Part shown: in pieces, positions 21,260 to 28,324 of the stretch | How the letters are laid out: each line of letters begins with the position of its first letter | Position numbering within the stretch: the first letter of the stretch is position 1 | DNA from: Polynucleobacter sp. MWH-Berg-3C6 | Lineage (GTDB): Bacteria > Pseudomonadota > Gammaproteobacteria > Burkholderiales > Burkholderiaceae | Assembly: GCF_018881855.1 (NCBI RefSeq) | Contig: NZ_JACVPN010000001.1 | Location: 186,001 to 250,000, forward strand | Reading direction: 5' to 3' | Length of the DNA stretch: 64,000 nt | Position numbers and translations under genes: made by a program | The notes under the pieces: generated by a model | Told to the model about the DNA's origin: nothing | The model's input: the letters and a program-made list of their open reading frames with translations, nothing else | Databases searched by the model: none

Positions 21260-22081
21260 TCAGTAGTAGCTGCTGAGACCTTTAACCATGAGGCTAATGG
21301 CCACCGTAAAAGTGAGAACTGCAAAAATTTGCTGTAAGCGTGGGCCACTCATTTTTTTACCAAATGCCCCTCCAATCAAAAGCCCCGTGAGAGCCCCCAA
21401 AGAGAATGGCGCTGCCAGGAGTAAATCTAGATTTCCTGCAGCAGCAGAAAATACAGCACCACCCGCTGAAACAATCGCAAGTACGCCTAAAGAAGTTGCC
21501 ACTATTGATTGAACTGGTAAATCGGTATAGCGCTTTAGTGCAGGAACAATCACAAAGCCACCCCCAACCCCGAGAAGCCCCGACAGAAAGCCTGCTATTC
21601 CACCTGAAAACATGAGCGCTCTTGCGCAAGGAATATTCCAAGCCAATTTACCAATCGATGGGTCCAATAAACAGGGTGGAGGTTTGCTAGCGCTATCGGT
21701 TATGCCTAAAATTTCTCGTCTGGCTTGTCTGTAGAGATTGGTGGATGAGTAAAAGAGTGTGCAACTAAATAAAATTAATAGTGGCCCATTGGGTACGCGC
21801 TGTGCCAACCAAAGACCTACTGGTGAAAGCAGCAATCCAAAGACCGCCATAAATCCAGCAGCTTTATATCTCAATATTTTGTTTTTCAGTCCTAATAGTG
21901 CGCCAACGCCAGCAGCAAGTGCTATGGCAGATAAAGCGACCGGCGCAGCTTCTGCTACCGATAAGTGCAGAGCAAAAACCAGCAATGGGACAGACAAAAT
22001 TCCGCCGCCAGCGCCAGTAAGCCCCATGAGGAGGCCTACGAGCACGCCTAGGGCCGGGCTGATCAATATTGAGTAATCCAT
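21260..22081 (-). CDS. TauE/SafE-family sulfite/organosulfonate exporter
   Basis: A 273-residue permease with eight hydrophobic segments in two repeats: GLLMGLTGAGGGILSVPLLVFAL at ~16-38, and GFLSGLLGVGGGFVIVPAL at ~163-181. The paired GxxxGGG motifs are diagnostic of the family, which exports sulfite, sulfoacetate or related thio-compounds. It is transcribed divergently from a persulfide-dioxygenase-like gene and a BigR-like repressor gene, the classic arrangement in which the exporter removes sulfite made from persulfides. Confidence 0.87.
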   Translation of the reverse strand: MDYSILISPALGVLVGLLMGLTGAGGGILSVPLLVFALHLSVAEAAPVALSAIALAAGVGALLGLKNKILRYKAAGFMAVFGLLLSPVGLWLAQRVPNGPLLILFSCTLFYSSTNLYRQARREILGITDSASKPPPCLLDPSIGKLAWNIPCARALMFSGGIAGFLSGLLGVGGGFVIVPALKRYTDLPVQSIVATSLGVLAIVSAGGAVFSAAAGNLDLLLAAPFSLGALTGLLIGGAFGKKMSGPRLQQIFAVLTFTVAISLMVKGLSSYY

Positions 22082-22084
22082 TGC

Positions 22085-22150
22085 AATTTATTTTATATTA
22101 AGATAGTATATAAATATATATATTAATTAGCTAGAGCAATCATGGAAAAA
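22085..22150. promoter_or_regulatory. Divergent A+T-rich promoter/operator region (BigR-like candidate)
   Basis: The short gap between the two divergent sulfur genes is almost pure A+T and contains a perfect 12-base palindrome, AATATATATATT at 22113-22124, in a longer run of TATA repeats. BigR, SqrR and YgaV repressors bind A+T-rich inverted repeats overlapping the -10 of such genes. The position fits; sequence specificity cannot be shown here, and A+T runs give palindromes easily. Confidence 0.45.
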
Positions 22151-22155
22151 CCATT

Positions 22156-23028
22156 GTGAACCTAAAAGTAAACGCTGACATTAAATCCTTTTTTGATCCA
22201 GAAACCTGGACTTTCACCTATGTAGTGTATGCGGGTGAGGGCAGTGCTTGTGTAGTGATTGACTCCGTTCTGAACTATGACCCCAAGTCAGGTCGAGCCA
22301 CCACCAAATCTGTAGATATGGTGGTGCAATTTATTGCTGAGAAAAAGTTGCAGCTAGCTTGGATATTAGAAACCCACGCACATGCAGACCATCTCACTGC
22401 GGCCCCGTATTTACAAAACAAGCTTGGCGGCAAGATTGTGATTGGTGATCACATTACCAATGTACAGAATGTTTTCAAGGGCATCTTCAACTTAGACGAG
22501 CACTTTGCAGTTGATGGTTCGCAATTTGATCGCTTGCTGAGAGATGGTGAATCGCTGGCTTTTGGCGAACTCTCTTTAAGGTCAATATACGTTCCGGGCC
22601 ACACCCCGGCTTGTATGGCTTATGAGATTGGGGGCGCCTTATTTGTGGGTGATACCTTGTTTATGCCGGATGTTGGCACGGCGCGATGTGATTTCCCGGG
22701 TGGAGATGCGAGGGCTTTATATCAATCGATTCAGAAAATCTTGAGCTATCCCAATGAAACCAAGCTGTATATGTGCCACGATTACCCGCCAACCAATCGA
22801 CCGGCGGCCCATCTGACCACTGTGGGGCAAGAAAAGCAAAATAATATTCATGTGCATGATGGCATCACTGAAGATGCATTTGTACAAATGCGTAGTAAGC
22901 GCGATGCTACTTTAGAAGTGCCTCATCTCATCCTGCCATCGATCCAAGTCAATATACGGGCAGGCCACTTTCCTGAGCCTGAGGCGAATGGCAAGTCCTA
23001 TCTCAAAATCCCACTGAATACTCTCTAA
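22156..23028 (+). CDS. MBL-fold persulfide dioxygenase-like hydrolase (Blh/ETHE1 group)
   Basis: A 290-residue metallo-beta-lactamase fold protein. The metal motif is H74-A-H76-A-D78-H79, followed by GHTPACMAYEIG (~154) and the MCHDY histidine (~213). The TVGQEKQNNIHV segment and the C-terminal FPEPEANGKSYLKIPLN are typical of Blh-like persulfide dioxygenases, which convert glutathione persulfide to sulfite. Start is GTG 22156; no in-frame ATG lies upstream. The next gene begins two bases after its stop. Function is assigned jointly from family and from the exporter/repressor neighbours. Confidence 0.85.
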   Translation: MNLKVNADIKSFFDPETWTFTYVVYAGEGSACVVIDSVLNYDPKSGRATTKSVDMVVQFIAEKKLQLAWILETHAHADHLTAAPYLQNKLGGKIVIGDHITNVQNVFKGIFNLDEHFAVDGSQFDRLLRDGESLAFGELSLRSIYVPGHTPACMAYEIGGALFVGDTLFMPDVGTARCDFPGGDARALYQSIQKILSYPNETKLYMCHDYPPTNRPAAHLTTVGQEKQNNIHVHDGITEDAFVQMRSKRDATLEVPHLILPSIQVNIRAGHFPEPEANGKSYLKIPLNTL

Positions 23029-23029
23029 T

Positions 23030-23347
23030 ATGAATATCCCCATTTCAAAAGCGGAACTCAAAAAAATGCAAGCATCTGCAGAAGATGCTTGCAAGCTCAT
23101 GAAAGTCCTTTCAAATCGTGATCGCATGATGCTCTTATGTGAGATTGGCCAAGGTGAAAAATGTGTTGGTGAACTAGAGGCTGCTCTAGATATTCATCAG
23201 CCAACGCTTTCACAACAGTTAACCGTTTTACGAAAAGAAAAACTAGTGAAGACTCGTAGAGATGGCAAACAAATCTACTACTCACTGGCTAGCCAGGTAG
23301 CAATAGCAGTCATGGGATTGCTATATAAGCACTATTGTAAGAAGTAG
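23030..23347 (+). CDS. bigR: ArsR-family repressor of the BigR/SqrR reactive-sulfur type
   Basis: A 105-residue winged-helix repressor. The recognition helix is QPTLSQQLTVLRKEKLVKTRRDGKQIYYSL (~57-86). Cysteines lie at C21, C37, C45 and C103. The pair C37 and C103 is 66 residues apart, exactly the spacing of the sensing cysteines in BigR (42/108) and SqrR (41/107), which form a polysulfide bridge and release DNA. It follows the persulfide-dioxygenase gene by one base and presumably controls the divergent promoter. C21 and C45 are additional. Confidence 0.85.
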   Translation: MNIPISKAELKKMQASAEDACKLMKVLSNRDRMMLLCEIGQGEKCVGELEAALDIHQPTLSQQLTVLRKEKLVKTRRDGKQIYYSLASQVAIAVMGLLYKHYCKK

Positions 23348-23588: not shown

Positions 23589-23608
23589 AAGTAATCAGCG
23601 CCTTGCAA

Positions 23609-23645
23609 CAAAGGGATACATTCTAAAAATATCTCTTTGTTTTTC
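23609..23645 (+). terminator. Probable intrinsic terminator after the sulfur operon
   Basis: CAAAGGGATA (from 23609) can pair with TATCTCTTTG (ending 23639) with one mismatch, followed by a T-rich run. The loop is 11 bases. Stability is modest, so termination may be partial. Confidence 0.4.
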
Positions 23646-23672
23646 TTTCTTGTAAGTACTTAGGAGTTCCAA

Positions 23673-24191
23673 ATGAACATGACCCATTACATGCAATTGT
23701 TGGCTGACAATCAGCCTTGGAATTTAATGCTATTTATGGCGATACCCATTGTGCTTGCAGAAACTTTGGCGATCACTGAGCTCTATATTTTGTTTACAAG
23801 AAGATTCCACGGCTTTATTTGGGGTCTCAATCGTTTTTCTGGCGCAGCTGTTGGCCTTTACTTTATTGGAGTCATTATTTATTTAATGACCACGGCAGTT
23901 GTTCCAATTACGCAAGCCGGTCAATGGAGAACTGTGATTGATGTGATAGCGGTTGGATCCTATCTGATTGGTGGCTTACCTTTGATTTGGATTGCATTGC
24001 AAGAGTTTGGCCTGGTTAATAAAAGCCTAAATCAAGAGGGTAAGCTCAAGATCCATGCAATCTGTGTCGCATTATTTTTAGTATTTGGTCACGTAGCAAT
24101 GATTAGCGGTATGTTGGATCCTGGTTTGCTGGGCTATCAAGGTACTGCGCACGCCGTTGATGGTGCAATGCCTGCTGCTCACGGACACTAG
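23673..24191 (+). CDS. Four-span membrane protein with a His-rich C-terminus
   Basis: A 172-residue protein with four hydrophobic helices (~15-40, 50-75, 90-112, 127-150) and a C-terminal tail ending AAHGH. It resembles a family of uncharacterised proteobacterial membrane proteins (DUF6803-like, from memory). GGAGTTCC with short spacing precedes ATG 23673. It converges on, and overlaps by 89 bases, the last gene of the flavin operon. Histidines in the helix containing FGHVAMISG and at the tail could bind metal or heme, but nothing proves it. Confidence 0.65.
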   Translation: MNMTHYMQLLADNQPWNLMLFMAIPIVLAETLAITELYILFTRRFHGFIWGLNRFSGAAVGLYFIGVIIYLMTTAVVPITQAGQWRTVIDVIAVGSYLIGGLPLIWIALQEFGLVNKSLNQEGKLKIHAICVALFLVFGHVAMISGMLDPGLLGYQGTAHAVDGAMPAAHGH

Positions 24192-24633
24192 TAGACCGTA
24201 GTAGCTTTGCTATGAAGGTAGGTAATAGGCTGATTCTCATAAGGCTATGCAATAAAAAAATAGCAAAGAACAGCAGCCCTAAGATCCAGTGGGTACTAAT
24301 AACCTCGTCTCGCATTTCAGCGGGCCCGTAATACAGCAAGGCCCCAGTAAGTAGTAGCGCCACTAAGAAGCCCAGCTGGCTAAGTCCACTCAACCATTTT
24401 TGTTTGGATTTAAGCCCAGCCTTTAAGTGAAAAGGCAGCACTGATCCCAAGGCGAGAGTTGCAATCATCGCAAAGACCCCATGTAAAGCCAGTATGTTGT
24501 GATTTCCTAAAGCCGCTCTTTGAATTTGAAACTCATGGCCAAGTAAATATAGGGTGCCGCTAATAGAGCAGGCAAGCATGCCGCCAATCACAAACGATCT
24601 TTGCCAGCTAGGCATTTTTCCCAAACGACTCAT
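24103..24633 (-). CDS. Four-helix membrane protein with paired histidines (cytochrome b-like candidate)
   Basis: A 176-residue protein with four hydrophobic helices (~14-31, 48-68, 86-101, 115-132) and a basic C-terminal tail. Helix two has H51 and H69 near its two ends, and helix four has H115 and H129, 14 residues apart. Helices carrying histidines near both membrane faces are how diheme b-type four-helix bundles bind heme. It is the last gene of the flavin operon; its start overlaps the apbE stop (ATG at 24633, apbE ends at 24630). A role in passing electrons across the membrane to the flavoprotein is inferred. No family is firmly recognised. Confidence 0.65.
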   Translation of the reverse strand: MSRLGKMPSWQRSFVIGGMLACSISGTLYLLGHEFQIQRAALGNHNILALHGVFAMIATLALGSVLPFHLKAGLKSKQKWLSGLSQLGFLVALLLTGALLYYGPAEMRDEVISTHWILGLLFFAIFLLHSLMRISLLPTFIAKLLRSTSVREQQALHHQRRAQYLDSPANQDPTYR

Positions 24634-25448
24634 GCGGCAATCCTGATGGCCTTTGCTGAGAAGTGATCAAAGCAAGCATGATCATGGGTCCCCGAGAGTG
24701 CAAGGACCTTAGTAAGGGCATCTGCATAAACACATTTACTGGCCAATACAGAACAAGAGCCTGAGAAATGGAGATAAGCCTCAGATTCATCTTGCGCAAA
24801 GGGATTGATGATGTGACTTTGCTCTTGATCACGATTGGAAAAGTACAAGCCACTTGTAGCGATAGCCCCATTTTGTAAGGCGCCAATGTCGATTAATTGG
24901 TTTGGTAGGCTTGGATTTCGAATTTGAATTGATCTTGGCGCTCCAAATACTCGTAGATCACCGCCTGCATTAACGCAGCCAGATTTGATGCCGCTTGCTA
25001 TCAAACTCTCCACCGCCTTATCAACTGCAAAGCCTTTAGCAATCCCCCCGAGATCCAAACATAAGGGCTTAGAGGCTCTGAGTGTTTGTGGGTCTATCAG
25101 GTGAATATCTTCAATGCCGCCTAGCTCATATGGAGATAAATCAATATGGCGAGGTAATAATCCAGCAGAGACTAATCGATGTCCAATGCCGCAATTAAAT
25201 AAACCATTTGATTGTCGATAAATTTCTTGGGCAATCTGAATAATTTCAGCGGTCCAGGGGTGAACTACTAGTGATACTTGATGGGCCCAGCGATTTATTT
25301 GATTGAGTTCACTCAAGGGATCGTAAAAACTCATCAAGTTCTGAACTTGCCCTATCGCAGTAAATGCTTGATTGATTGCCTTATCACTTTCTTGATCGAT
25401 GGTGATTTCTACAAATGTTCCCAAAAGAGCTTGGCAACGCATTGTCAT
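24630..25448 (-). CDS. apbE: FAD:protein FMN transferase
   Basis: A 272-residue Mg-dependent enzyme that covalently attaches FMN to a Thr of an exported acceptor protein. Family features: the N-terminal ALLGTFVEI, MSFYDPLSELNQIN, the FNCGIGHRL segment, DLGGIAKGFAVDKAVE (~147) with the FAD/Mg residues, NAGGDLRVFG, and a C-terminal ADALTKVLAL. There is no signal peptide or lipobox, unlike the periplasmic E. coli form, so it may flavinylate before export, or the start may be misplaced. It overlaps the upstream FMN-binding gene by four bases, pointing to that protein as substrate. Confidence 0.9.
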   Translation of the reverse strand: MTMRCQALLGTFVEITIDQESDKAINQAFTAIGQVQNLMSFYDPLSELNQINRWAHQVSLVVHPWTAEIIQIAQEIYRQSNGLFNCGIGHRLVSAGLLPRHIDLSPYELGGIEDIHLIDPQTLRASKPLCLDLGGIAKGFAVDKAVESLIASGIKSGCVNAGGDLRVFGAPRSIQIRNPSLPNQLIDIGALQNGAIATSGLYFSNRDQEQSHIINPFAQDESEAYLHFSGSCSVLASKCVYADALTKVLALSGTHDHACFDHFSAKAIRIAA

Positions 25449-25978
25449 TTAGCCTTCAAAGCTAAGTCATATAAGACTGCTACTCGCTTGACTCCATCGG
25501 TGATATGTTTGCAAGAAAGAGTTGCTCCGCCAATATTCTGGATATCTTGATTCAGCTTGATTGGGTCTTTGGCAGATTTACCTACAAATTGTTTACGCCA
25601 CTGAGGTTCTGCAACTTCGTAGCCATAAGACTCTACGTATTCCAAAATCTCGATACCTAAAATACTGCCGTTGGGAGCGATCCCCACGGCGTAAGTAATC
25701 ATTTCATGTTTGCCGACAACTTCATCAATGACTAGCCAGCTACCATCAGATGCTTTCCAGATCCGATCTCCTTGAAAAGGATGGCGAATGCTAGATGCCG
25801 CTCGCATTCTTTCTTGGAGGTCATCGGTAATGATGATGGGTGCTTTTGTGAGCTGCTTATTGGGGAACAGAATTTTCTGTACCTGATCTGCTGTGACATA
25901 AATCTTTGCATGAGCAATAATGGGCGCGCTTATCATTGCTAAGCCAACTATTGCAAATGGGTTGGGTTTCCAGTTCAT
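25445..25978 (-). CDS. Exported FMN-binding domain protein (flavinylated electron carrier)
   Basis: A 177-residue protein with a signal peptide (N-terminal hydrophobic stretch, cleavage likely after AHA near residue 24). The C-terminal FMN-binding domain resembles NqrC/RnfG: ITYAVGIAPNGSILGIEILEY strands (~94-114) and GGATLS at 150-155, with T153 as the candidate flavinylation site. Coupling to apbE supports covalent FMN. It would lie in the periplasm and shuttle electrons. It follows the barrel gene by 15 bases. Confidence 0.87.
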   Translation of the reverse strand: MNWKPNPFAIVGLAMISAPIIAHAKIYVTADQVQKILFPNKQLTKAPIIITDDLQERMRAASSIRHPFQGDRIWKASDGSWLVIDEVVGKHEMITYAVGIAPNGSILGIEILEYVESYGYEVAEPQWRKQFVGKSAKDPIKLNQDIQNIGGATLSCKHITDGVKRVAVLYDLALKAK

Positions 25979-25993
25979 TTGATATCTCTATCT

Positions 25994-26908
25994 TTAGTTC
26001 AGTGGAAAACCCACTTTGAGGATGAATTCATTTACGGTGTGGCTATCCCATACCCGGGCGTTAGAACATTCAGCTTCACCGCCGCCCATACAGTTACCGC
26101 CCGCCAGTTGATAGCGCCAGGCACCGGTTACCCACCAGTCTTTGGAGGCATAGTGCAAGTTAGGCCCTACAAAGGTGGCACGTTGTACCTGGTTACGCAG
26201 ATTGAGTTCTGAGTAATCGTTATGAAAGCGCGCCTCTACACCTGCAGACCACTTAGGGGCGAAGCGATAACTAGCCCCCACTAAAAAATCAAGCATTGAT
26301 TCGGGGACATTGCCATTCTCAATAAATTTCAAGCGTTCATTTGCCACAACAACGTTGCCAGCAAGGATTAAGCGATCATCCATAAAATTGGACTGCAATA
26401 AGAGTCGAGCTTCGAGCTCATCTTTATTTTTACCCCAGGTAGGTTCCAAATAGAATCCCACTCCAACAGGGGAGGTCACTGGATTGGTGAGTCGATAAAT
26501 GGCTTCAAGGGAGACACCCTCAATGCCACCCTTCTTATATGCTGATGCAGGATTATGCGAGGAGGGTACTGCATAGCCGCCAGTGCAGCTTGGCGCATCG
26601 CCGCATGCTTCAGGATTGGTGTAGTTCTGATTTGCATTGGTGTAGTAGGAATTGATATAGCCCGCAATTTGTAAATCATTTGTTAAGCCGTACTCCAATT
26701 CTGATCGGGCAGTCCATGCCTCATAAGTTCCAGCTGCCTGTTGTTGATTGAGCTGTAGGCGTTGTTCAAACTCCAACTTCCCTTTGGGCTGAAGATCTAG
26801 CGTATAGATCCAGCCGAATACTCCTTCGCCGGCATTGGCAAAAGAGAAATGAAGGGCGCTTGCGATGATGAAACTAAAGGCAATCAGTCTTTTGATGGTT
26901 ATTTTCAT
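25994..26908 (-). CDS. Putative outer-membrane beta-barrel protein (DUF6662-like)
   Basis: A 304-residue protein with a cleavable signal peptide (ending FANAG near residue 27) and repeated alternating amphipathic strands ending in an aromatic/hydrophobic C-terminus (EFILKVGFPLN), the usual barrel-assembly signal. Strands such as LEFEQRLQLNQQ, WTARSELEYGL, DLQIAGYINSYY and KWSAGVEARFHNDY support a barrel. Four Cys in two loops (ACGDAPSC and NCMGGGEAEC) could form disulfides. It is the first gene behind two Fur-box-like sites. It may be a pore or a scaffold for the flavin module; substrate unknown. Confidence 0.72.
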   Translation of the reverse strand: MKITIKRLIAFSFIIASALHFSFANAGEGVFGWIYTLDLQPKGKLEFEQRLQLNQQQAAGTYEAWTARSELEYGLTNDLQIAGYINSYYTNANQNYTNPEACGDAPSCTGGYAVPSSHNPASAYKKGGIEGVSLEAIYRLTNPVTSPVGVGFYLEPTWGKNKDELEARLLLQSNFMDDRLILAGNVVVANERLKFIENGNVPESMLDFLVGASYRFAPKWSAGVEARFHNDYSELNLRNQVQRATFVGPNLHYASKDWWVTGAWRYQLAGGNCMGGGEAECSNARVWDSHTVNEFILKVGFPLN

Positions 26909-26940
26909 GGTCGTATCAGGTCAGTGGTGGATAAAGTCTA

Positions 26941-26988
26941 AATGAGAATGGTTCTCAATATACCACTAAATGAGAATGATTCTCAAAT
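26941..26988 (-). promoter_or_regulatory. Promoter with two Fur-box-like palindromes
   Basis: Two near-identical sites, AATGAGAATGGTTCTCAAT (26941-26959) and AATGAGAATGATTCTCAAA (from 26969), match the Fur consensus of inverted AATGAGAA repeats, 28 bases apart. On the minus strand a -35 like TTGAGA (26981-26986) and a -10 like TATATT (26957-26962) are 18 bases apart and lie within the two boxes. The start codon of the barrel gene is at 26908. Repression by iron-loaded Fur of the four-gene flavin operon follows; the divergent DUF3820 gene at 27062 could also be affected. Confidence 0.8.
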
Positions 26989-27061
26989 AAAAAATGACCC
27001 ATTTCTGATAAATGGCGTTTCTTGTAAGACTTTTCCGTATTGCTTGTAAGATTTCCATTCA

Positions 27062-27295
27062 ATGAATGCAGAAGACCTCGAGAAACTTGTCTTAATGAAA
27101 ATGCCTTACGGTAAACATGCTGGGCGTGCTCTAGCAGACTTGCCAGGAAATTACTTAGCCTGGTTTGCAAGAGAGGGGTTTCCCAAGGGGGAGTTGGGGC
27201 AGTTGCTAGAGCTGATGCATACGCTCGATCACAATGGCTTGCGTGGACTGTTGGCACCCATACAGCGGGCGCATGGTTTAAAAACTAGACCGTAA
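27062..27295 (+). CDS. DUF3820 family small protein
   Basis: A 77-residue protein with the family pattern KMPYGKHAGRALADLPGNYLAWFAREGFPKGELGQLL. The domain appears alone or fused to DNA polymerase III epsilon-like exonucleases and is suspected to bind nucleic acid or nucleotide; no activity is proven. It converges end to end with the NUC1 nuclease gene, whose last base directly follows its stop. Confidence 0.85.
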   Translation: MNAEDLEKLVLMKMPYGKHAGRALADLPGNYLAWFAREGFPKGELGQLLELMHTLDHNGLRGLLAPIQRAHGLKTRP

Positions 27296-28324
27296 TTACT
27301 GTGAGCGAACGATTGCAGTAACTCGGTTTCGTTCGTAAGTCACCATTGCCGAATCTGGCGGGCTGCTGTGAAGCAGGCTAGGAGTAATAGATGTTTGCGC
27401 TCCAATTTGAGCGGCAATTTTTTTAGCCAGATCACTATTGCGGTCGTATTGAATTTCAATACTCGCTACACGACCTTCTTTAATACTCTTGATAAGTTGA
27501 TCTACCTTGATGGATGAGTACTCATCAAAGAAGATCGGATACCAGCCGCCCACCATCGCCTTAGCTGGCCTGGGCTCTGTGGTAGTGACTATAGTTGCAG
27601 CTGCGCCTGTATTCATGAGTGGTAGCTGAAAATCAATCCCTGTTTTCTGAATCAAATCCTGATAGGAGATCGGTGGAGTCATGGCGGCCTCATTGGTATT
27701 CTCAATCCAATAAGCCCATGCCAAATTTTTGCTTGGGTCGTAAACCAGTTTGTATAGATGGCTTGGAATGGTGACACGACCACTGCCGATACTTCCGCTA
27801 TTACCAGTTGAGCCGGTAAAGACATAAACATCGCCCGTTGCTCTTTTAACGTAAAGCCGGGTCGGCTCTTCCACATTCTTAGCCCAAATGCCCTGATTAT
27901 TTTGTCTTGCTTGGGGCATCATGTTTGCCAATGAGAATGACTGAGCCATTGATCTTTCATTCGTCATATCTCCAGCCGGGGCATTATGGCCGCGGTCATA
28001 ACCGCTCCCGCGGTAGTCGGAAAGGAGTGAGCGCTCGGCCAACGGCAATCTCGCTTCTTCATAAAATTGGTTGCTTCTTTTGGGGTGAGGAGCCAATAAC
28101 TGATCTCTACTTAACTTCTCTACTGTGTAGATAGGCTTTTTGTCTGAGGGCGAGTAATAGATCGCAAAGCTATCAAAGCAGAGGTCACGCCCTGCTTGCT
28201 GGGTGCTCGGAATTTTCTGCCCCGGAAATAGATCCTTGCAATCTTCGAATAAGGCAAAGGCACTGAGTGGGTTTAGAAGACCAAGTAGTGCTGCCAGGAC
28301 AAGAAACTGACGAAGGGATTTCAT
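27296..28324 (-). CDS. Exported DNA/RNA non-specific endonuclease (NUC1 family)
   Basis: A 342-residue secreted or periplasmic nuclease with a signal peptide (to about residue 24, SAFA). The beta-beta-alpha-metal active site is YDRGHNAPAGDM with catalytic H113, and the Mg-binding Asn lies in ANMMPQARQNNQGIW (~142). The core fold ends near 260. A C-terminal extension of about 80 residues (from SIKVDQLIKSIKE, with a Lys/Ala-rich part) is not usual for Serratia-type nucleases. Physiological roles may include DNA scavenging. No immunity gene is adjacent. Confidence 0.85.
   Translation of the reverse strand: MKSLRQFLVLAALLGLLNPLSAFALFEDCKDLFPGQKIPSTQQAGRDLCFDSFAIYYSPSDKKPIYTVEKLSRDQLLAPHPKRSNQFYEEARLPLAERSLLSDYRGSGYDRGHNAPAGDMTNERSMAQSFSLANMMPQARQNNQGIWAKNVEEPTRLYVKRATGDVYVFTGSTGNSGSIGSGRVTIPSHLYKLVYDPSKNLAWAYWIENTNEAAMTPPISYQDLIQKTGIDFQLPLMNTGAAATIVTTTEPRPAKAMVGGWYPIFFDEYSSIKVDQLIKSIKEGRVASIEIQYDRNSDLAKKIAAQIGAQTSITPSLLHSSPPDSAMVTYERNRVTAIVRSQ

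Follow-up and report, generated by a model that had tools for sequence, protein, structure and literature searches.

We analyzed a stretch of 64,000 nucleotides from Polynucleobacter sp. MWH-Berg-3C6, a member of a common freshwater genus (contig NZ_JACVPN010000001.1, positions 186,001 to 250,000; hereafter the window, with coordinates counted from its first base), and describe here an operon that combines a predicted flavin mononucleotide (FMN) transferase of the ApbE family with a predicted FMN acceptor. The unit occupies 24103-26908 on the minus strand and encodes, in order of transcription, a DUF6662 outer-membrane barrel (25994-26908, 304 residues), a secreted FMN_bind protein (25445-25978, 177 residues), an ApbE-family flavin adenine dinucleotide (FAD):protein FMN transferase (24630-25448; PF02424, 148.5 bits; LGTFV motif at residue 9) and a four-helix membrane protein that we call TM4 (24103-24633, 176 residues), a putative dihaem b-type cytochrome. 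The FMN_bind and ApbE genes overlap by 4 bases, as do the ApbE and TM4 genes. A preliminary description of this DNA had read the locus as one unit of four minus-strand genes that opens with an outer-membrane barrel, and the coordinates, the Pfam families and both overlaps all agree with it. The source genome (1.99 Mb in 28 contigs) yielded a single match each for ApbE, FMN_bind and DUF6662 in profile searches, leaving the FMN_bind product encoded next to it as the one visible substrate of the transferase.

The four-gene order is conserved from Polynucleobacter to Acinetobacter, which answers the preliminary description's call for such a comparison. A scan of named genomes gave 118 FMN_bind relatives, the best 80 of which were retained. 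These 80 loci are mostly from Polynucleobacter but also from Sheuella, Pseudacidovorax, Duganella, Herminiimonas and Acinetobacter, and include two metagenome-assembled genomes labelled Reyranella and Beijerinckiaceae. The barrel gene was found in 79 of them, apbE in 78 and the TM4 gene in 74, the absentees falling beyond contig ends, and the order barrel, FMN_bind, ApbE, TM4 holds in every locus with a sufficiently long contig. The FMN_bind protein is encoded in 113 of 151 Polynucleobacter genomes (91 of the 117 near-complete ones). A class-level survey of 370 genomes returned FMN_bind matches at an E value of 1e-15 in 26, the source genome included. Eight of these, again including the source genome, fall below 1e-50; the other seven all carry FMN_bind, ApbE and TM4 together, and the DUF6662 barrel was detected in three of them. 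No partner gene was found with our profiles, in flanks of up to 1.5 kb, around the remaining eighteen matches, and the distribution of the operon outside Polynucleobacter is therefore patchy. The operon is nevertheless an old unit, its gene order and the promoter palindromes described below being conserved beyond the genus. Some loci depart from the common form. Two strains, AP-Reno-20A-A9 and MG-27-Goln-C1, have the operon twice, the second copy being diverged (loci L064 and L065), Polynucleobacter necessarius isolate PPGSP2 (L048) has a broken one with short barrel and FMN_bind frames, and two further genomes (G116 and G102) have in-frame stops within the FMN_bind match.

Two Fur-like palindromes lie on the minus strand upstream of the barrel gene, 28 bases apart. 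The distal one, TGAGAATCATTCTCA (26971-26985), has a perfect core and overlaps a -35-like hexamer, TTGAGA; the proximal one, TGAGAACCATTCTCA (26943-26957), has one mismatch and starts at the last base of a -10-like hexamer, TATATT. The two near-perfect palindromes that the preliminary description had placed around promoter hexamers are present, one of them being perfect. TGAGAATCATTCTCA is the only perfect core match in the 1.99 Mb genome and TGAGAACCATTCTCA is one of five with one mismatch; at up to two mismatches the genome holds 18 places, against 7 for a reversed control pattern. The promoter-like element TTGAGA-18-TATATT (26957-26986) matches 10 of 12 positions and is among the two best such matches in 23600-27300, an interval where promoter-like matches occur at chance level (8 seen against 7.1 expected). 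Its TATATT columns are 0.92-0.98 conserved in an alignment of 65 upstream regions.

When a site was defined as a core with at most three mismatches within 200 bases upstream, 66 of the 78 relatives with upstream DNA had two Fur-like sites, 10 had one and 2 had none, in line with the expectation that the palindromes would be kept; all 66 two-site relatives preserve a spacing of 27-30 bases. A score of at least 15 out of 18 was reached in 69 of the 78 upstream regions and in none of 2953 control tiles taken from the same loci. In the alignment of 65 rows (the window and 64 loci), column conservation is 0.916 within the sites and 0.644 over the remaining upstream region. That alignment leaves out L038, L058, L059, L066, L068, L069, L071, L072 and L075-L081, which represent other genera, diverged metagenome-assembled genomes or shifted spacing, as well as L067, whose barrel gene is not on its contig. 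Because the site columns exceed the upstream average, it is unlikely that the sites have been conserved through descent alone, although two other short blocks equal them in conservation. Among the seven distant loci, a site precedes the leading gene in L176, L177/L178 and L179, with scores of 14, 14 and 15 out of 18; in L177 and L178, two genomes of one genus in which no barrel was detected, it lies directly 5' of the FMN_bind gene. A site was not seen in L173-L175, where the DNA before the barrel-like gene of L174 and L175 is hardly covered.

The consensus used above was derived from the operon itself, and we therefore took feoA, a canonical Fur target, as an independent control. In 20 Polynucleobacter genomes (20 of 30 loci retrieved; 90 genomes have FeoB) the same consensus scored 14-16 out of 18 upstream of feoA in all 20, the best site lying between -49 and -85, and the source genome scored 16; after shuffling, a score of 14 was reached by 3 of 400 sequences and 15 by none. 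Given the control tiles, the genome-wide counts and the feoA scores, we reject the possibility that the palindromes arose by chance. The source genome encodes a single Fur-family protein (141 bits). Since the same motif precedes feoA and one Fur-family protein is present, Fur control, already proposed in the preliminary description, is well supported by these sequence comparisons and is the best supported of our claims about the operon.

Sixteen of the palindrome places with up to two mismatches lie outside the operon. One precedes feoA and two precede a gene for an OprB-type porin (PF04966), where they form a second double palindrome, with one mismatch each and 29 bases apart (C26; L098:412-455), that also precedes a gene for a 257-residue barrel-looking protein without a Pfam match. 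One, with two mismatches, stands some 34 bases ahead of a gene for cytochrome b561 (PF01292; C1:487271, L103:2272-2286), and one, with one mismatch, about 190 bases before a gene for a small iron-sulfur protein of the HiPIP family (PF01355; C1:162139, L099:3640-3654). The other eleven lie within genes, precede genes with no obvious connection to iron or have no listed gene nearby.

The FMN_bind protein carries the domain that serves as ApbE acceptor (PF04205, 42.7 bits against a cut-off of 22), encoded in the same cluster as the ApbE domain. Its GGATLS stretch is present at residues 150-155, as had been noted, and T153 is the putative site of covalent FMN. G151, A152, T153, L154 and S155 do not vary among the 16 sequences aligned, nor do H91 and H158, the latter five residues past the acceptor threonine; the distant relative L179 has an asparagine at the position of H158. 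The published acceptor motif reads D-x-x-[S/T]-G-A-[S/T] in the passage cited (PMC12052999). The window protein and four others read Q-N-I-G-G-A-T, with no D at -6 and G instead of S/T at -3, five of the 16 read [E/Q]-N-I-S-G-A-T, and six vary further, all 16 keeping GAT. The match of the window protein to the flavinylation motif is thus partial, as far as the alignment tells. The protein has a hydrophobic leader, which ends in an A-x-A-like site in most of the sequences inspected; a twin arginine is absent from the first 25 residues in all 79 sequences.

The transferase is less conventional. In all 78 relatives the ApbE domain starts no later than residue 16, and in 71 of them at most 25 open codons precede the ApbE start in frame, which leaves no room for a signal peptide. 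The median best hydropathy over 12 residues is 2.15 for FMN_bind, 2.55 for the barrel and 1.22 for ApbE, with overlapping ranges. Four of the seven distant ApbE relatives likewise begin near the domain, and L176-L178 have an open frame ahead of it with no hydrophobic leader in the portion examined. By alignment and motif, S199, H212 and D243 would be the equivalents of the triad Vc Ser241, His257 and Asp285. The serine and the aspartate are conserved. At the position aligned with His257, 34 of 75 rows, the window protein among them, have a histidine, while 22 have Y, 9 have A, 6 have F and 4 have another residue. According to the passages cited, most ApbEs are apparently secreted, the chemistry between ApbE and its acceptor was established mainly on secreted enzymes with a catalytic histidine, and a cytosolic ApbE of Klebsiella serves a soluble fumarate reductase (PMC12052999). 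The preliminary description had considered this pair a case of established chemistry. Both domains and the acceptor threonine are indeed there; the lack of a signal peptide and the frequent loss of the histidine in this clade nevertheless weaken that view.

TM4 has four histidines that are nearly invariant among its relatives: H51 and H69 in 75 of 75 rows, H115 in 74 and H129 in 73. All four are invariant in an alignment of 42 rows, which leaves out two disrupted and many near-identical copies. An AlphaFold2 model, with a predicted local distance difference test score (pLDDT) of 89, has four long helices (9-34, 45-76, 80-102 and 105-133), in agreement with the earlier reading as a four-helix protein, and the window protein has an additional C-terminal helix (136-165) that is absent from most aligned relatives. 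Membrane proteins tend to follow the positive-inside rule. Read by eye, the lysines of loop 71-80 and the basic N-terminal residues would place both of these segments in the cytoplasm, and hence H51 and H115 towards the periplasm and H69 and H129 towards the cytoplasm. This placement would fit two stacked b-haems, and TM4 is likely to be the electron conduit of the operon. No Pfam family scored above its cut-off for TM4, the best being DUF4405 (PF14358; E value 0.019; 15.9 bits against 26.7), and a search of PDB sequences with the TM4 profile found nothing. Weak matches among the 42 aligned members were to DUF4405 in 13 (best E value 0.00024), cytochrome b561 (PF01292) in three (best 5e-6), NnrS in two and PF01794 in one (0.0094); further weak families look like chance. 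Membership of the PepSY group was rejected because neither TM4, at E values up to 1, nor any of the 42 members, at E values up to 0.01, matched PepSY, and the Pfam and NCBIfam results led us to reject assignment of the operon to MsrQ, Rnf or Nqr systems.

The product of the first gene matches DUF6662 (PF20367) with 51.1 bits against a cut-off of 27, and 15 of 15 aligned members match it at E values up to 0.01. It has a hydrophobic leader and is modelled by AlphaFold2 as 12 strands (pLDDT 86), which agrees with its earlier assignment as an outer-membrane barrel. The best Foldseek matches of the model are FapF (5o67, E value 1e-10) and a COG4313 channel (4rl8, 4e-7); the resemblance to these folds suggests that the barrel may be a passive channel. 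No TonB-type plug domain was found in it by Pfam, and our literature search found no paper on DUF6662.

The proposal that electrons pass through flavin and haem in this system has withstood the comparisons above. From the operon and its conservation, the Fur-type motif shared with feoAB, the acceptor threonine and the histidine pattern we infer a route in which haem binding, the donor of the electrons, the direction in which they flow, the reduction of Fe(III), the part played by the barrel and the compartment of flavinylation are all putative. Under low iron, Fur would leave the two palindromes and the operon would be expressed, and ApbE would attach FMN to the FMN_bind protein. Since the operon has no cytosolic electron-donor domain, we assume quinol as the donor: TM4 would draw electrons from the quinone pool and pass them through two b-haems, one at H69/H129 on the cytoplasmic side and the next at H51/H115 towards the periplasm, to the FMN of the secreted FMN_bind protein. 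This protein would then reduce periplasmic Fe(III), whether free or in a chelate, and the barrel would act as a passive channel that either admits an Fe(III) chelate or gives the flavoprotein access to it. The resulting Fe(II) could be imported by FeoB where present, and by other importers. We thus favour an assimilatory periplasmic Fe(III) reductase derepressed through Fur, in line with the flavin-based ferric reductase suggested in the preliminary description, a reading to which we give about an even chance of being correct. It is in keeping with the passages cited on related systems, in which iron-linked flavinylation clusters, some of them Fur-repressed and PepSY-like, have already been proposed as iron reductases (PMC8238504) and an ApbE-DUF2271 cluster appears in a Caulobacter table of genes responsive to iron and regulated by Fur (PMC3751524). 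For Polynucleobacter asymbioticus, the passages cited name ferrous-uptake systems such as FeoAB as the only ones known and report an increase of feoAB of about 4-fold in one co-culture, interpreted by the authors as iron-limited (PMC6629928); both statements concern that species irrespective of the operon. The presence of FMN_bind and that of FeoB are associated among the 151 Polynucleobacter genomes: both occur in 85, FMN_bind alone in 28, FeoB alone in 5 and neither in 33. For the near-complete genomes the figures are 72, 19, 3 and 23 (Fisher p 4e-10), derived from tallies and not counted genome by genome. A subset of few-contig genomes was set aside as biased, most genomes without a match being unlisted in it. 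In both loci with a second operon copy (L064:4230-4842 and L065:4228-4845) a ferritin-like gene (PF00210) is divergent from the operon across the Fur-like sites. The source genome has three TonB receptors, and no Fur-like core with up to two mismatches was found near them in the stretches examined, which leaves a siderophore link without support.

Several observations weigh against the ferric-reductase reading. Loci L071 and L079 have no Fur-like site as defined above and L173 has none upstream, two further short stretches upstream (around -143 to -135 and -91 to -85) reach about the same conservation as the sites, and the single Fur-family protein was not distinguished as Fur, Zur or PerR. 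A Foldseek search with the TM4 model gave no match at an E value of 0.001 or better, and although realigned structures of hydrogenase-1 cytochrome b, E. coli superoxide oxidase, cytochrome b6 and the formate dehydrogenase cytochrome subunit reached Z scores of 10.5, 10.4, 10.4 and 9.9, unrelated helical bundles score as high or higher, Z scores of 10-12 being typical of any helical bundle; the structural matches only agree with the idea of a b-type cytochrome. The absence of a cytosolic donor domain and the contrast between an ApbE without room for a signal peptide and an acceptor with a leader belong here too. The counts of FMN_bind and FeoB given above carry no correction for phylogeny or incomplete assemblies. 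With 28 of 113 module-bearing genomes lacking a FeoB match, the module is not simply a FeoB feeder.

These 28 genomes, together with the lack of an iron transporter gene among the four genes of the operon (Pfam), leave room for the main rival explanation, in which electrons flow under iron starvation to some other acceptor in the periplasm or outer membrane (haem, humic substances, or protein or sulfur repair, for example), the flavin replaces iron-rich c-type cytochromes and Fur control serves to spare iron. Meheust et al. indeed suggest, in the passage cited, that flavinylation may be advantageous where iron is scarce (PMC8238504). The membrane partner itself, however, looks like a dihaem protein, the regulator motif is common to the operon and feoAB, ferritin-like neighbours occur, and the operon contains no further oxidoreductase gene, all of which make this alternative appreciably less probable than Fe(III) reduction, though we consider it a real possibility. 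The position of the barrel gene, first in the unit and present in 79 of 80 loci, points in another direction, namely that the barrel might be a specific uptake channel for a ferric chelate (humate, citrate) or a haem chelate whose complex the flavin arm strips or reduces, in the manner of siderophore-iron reductases. The FapF/COG4313-like fold without a TonB-type plug and the replacement of the barrel in the distant loci L174 and L175 by a different barrel-like protein of about 450 residues, before FMN_bind, ApbE and TM4, are compatible with this; L177 and L178, however, keep the other three genes with no DUF6662 barrel detected in 1.5 kb upstream, and we hold such a channel to be unlikely.

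The oddities of the transferase admit two further explanations. The ApbE-like protein could have ceased to transfer FMN, the acceptor binding flavin non-covalently or going unflavinylated in this organism. The missing room for a signal peptide, the histidine kept in only 34 of 75 rows, the glycine three residues before T153 and the fact that this is the sole ApbE match in the genome speak for such a loss; yet the acceptor threonine is invariant, the presumed triad serine and aspartate are conserved, the operon linkage is tight with its 4-base overlaps, and the window protein does have H212, so that we judge it improbable. Conversely, a signal-less ApbE clade that has partly given up the catalytic histidine might flavinylate its partner while it is still in the cytosol, either ahead of Sec export or in the course of it. 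The flavinylated partner would be the FMN arm of a compact four-helix dihaem conduit that forms a new class beside NapH, MsrQ, PepSY, DsbD, Nqr/Rnf-like and DUF4405 proteins and acts as the ferric reductase of Polynucleobacter and of other, scattered proteobacteria. We regard this conjecture as doubtful.

The operon differs from each of the systems that it recalls. Like TM4, the DUF4405 cytochromes are apbE-linked membrane proteins with four conserved histidines, and they have been shown to bind haem B, but in the passages cited they have six helices where TM4 has four core ones, and a Flavodoxin_4 partner in place of FMN_bind and DUF6662 (PMC11334425); TM4 may be at most a distant, smaller relation. 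The Fur-repressed clusters of Caulobacter and Shewanella that contain PepSY-like, DUF2271, DUF4198 and ApbE proteins are iron-responsive and likewise join ApbE, a flavin carrier and a membrane protein (PMC8238504, PMC3751524), the Caulobacter table also listing an adjoining 'Transporter' (PMC3751524). The operon described here has no PepSY, DUF2271 or DUF4198 domain by Pfam, and the one cognate ApbE described for those clusters in the passages cited has a signal peptide, without which it was cloned. Among solved structures, RnfG and NqrC come closest to the FMN_bind domain (7zc6, E value 6e-8; 9eri, 1e-7; 4xa7, 0.0014), but no other Rnf- or Nqr-type gene occurs in the operon, their ETPGLG-type stretch reads ESYGYE here, and here a histidine lies five residues past the acceptor threonine. 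The cytosolic ApbE of Klebsiella shares the lack of a signal peptide, but its target in the passage cited is the soluble fumarate reductase, where the partner here is a secreted FMN_bind protein (PMC12052999). Flavinylation systems are already known as a kind, and the combination of a putative cytochrome, a barrel and a signal-less ApbE is a variation on them that is new; our search of titles and abstract starts in one literature library found none describing the operon. The operon offers a concrete and testable answer to how Polynucleobacter uses Fe(III), a small putative class of transmembrane cytochromes and a hint to the function of DUF6662 barrels, and it poses the puzzle of the compartment in which an ApbE without a signal peptide could act on an exported partner.

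Further features surround the operon. The 3' end of the TM4 gene overlaps a convergent DUF6803 gene (23673-24191, plus strand) by 89 bases (24103-24191). A group of metallo-beta-lactamase-fold, ArsR and TauE-SafE genes (21260-23347), which resembles persulfide detoxification operons, adjoins the unit and is its neighbour in many relatives as well. Elsewhere in the source genome, C1:406000-411500 appears to carry photosynthesis genes, for bacteriochlorophyll and reaction-centre-like proteins.

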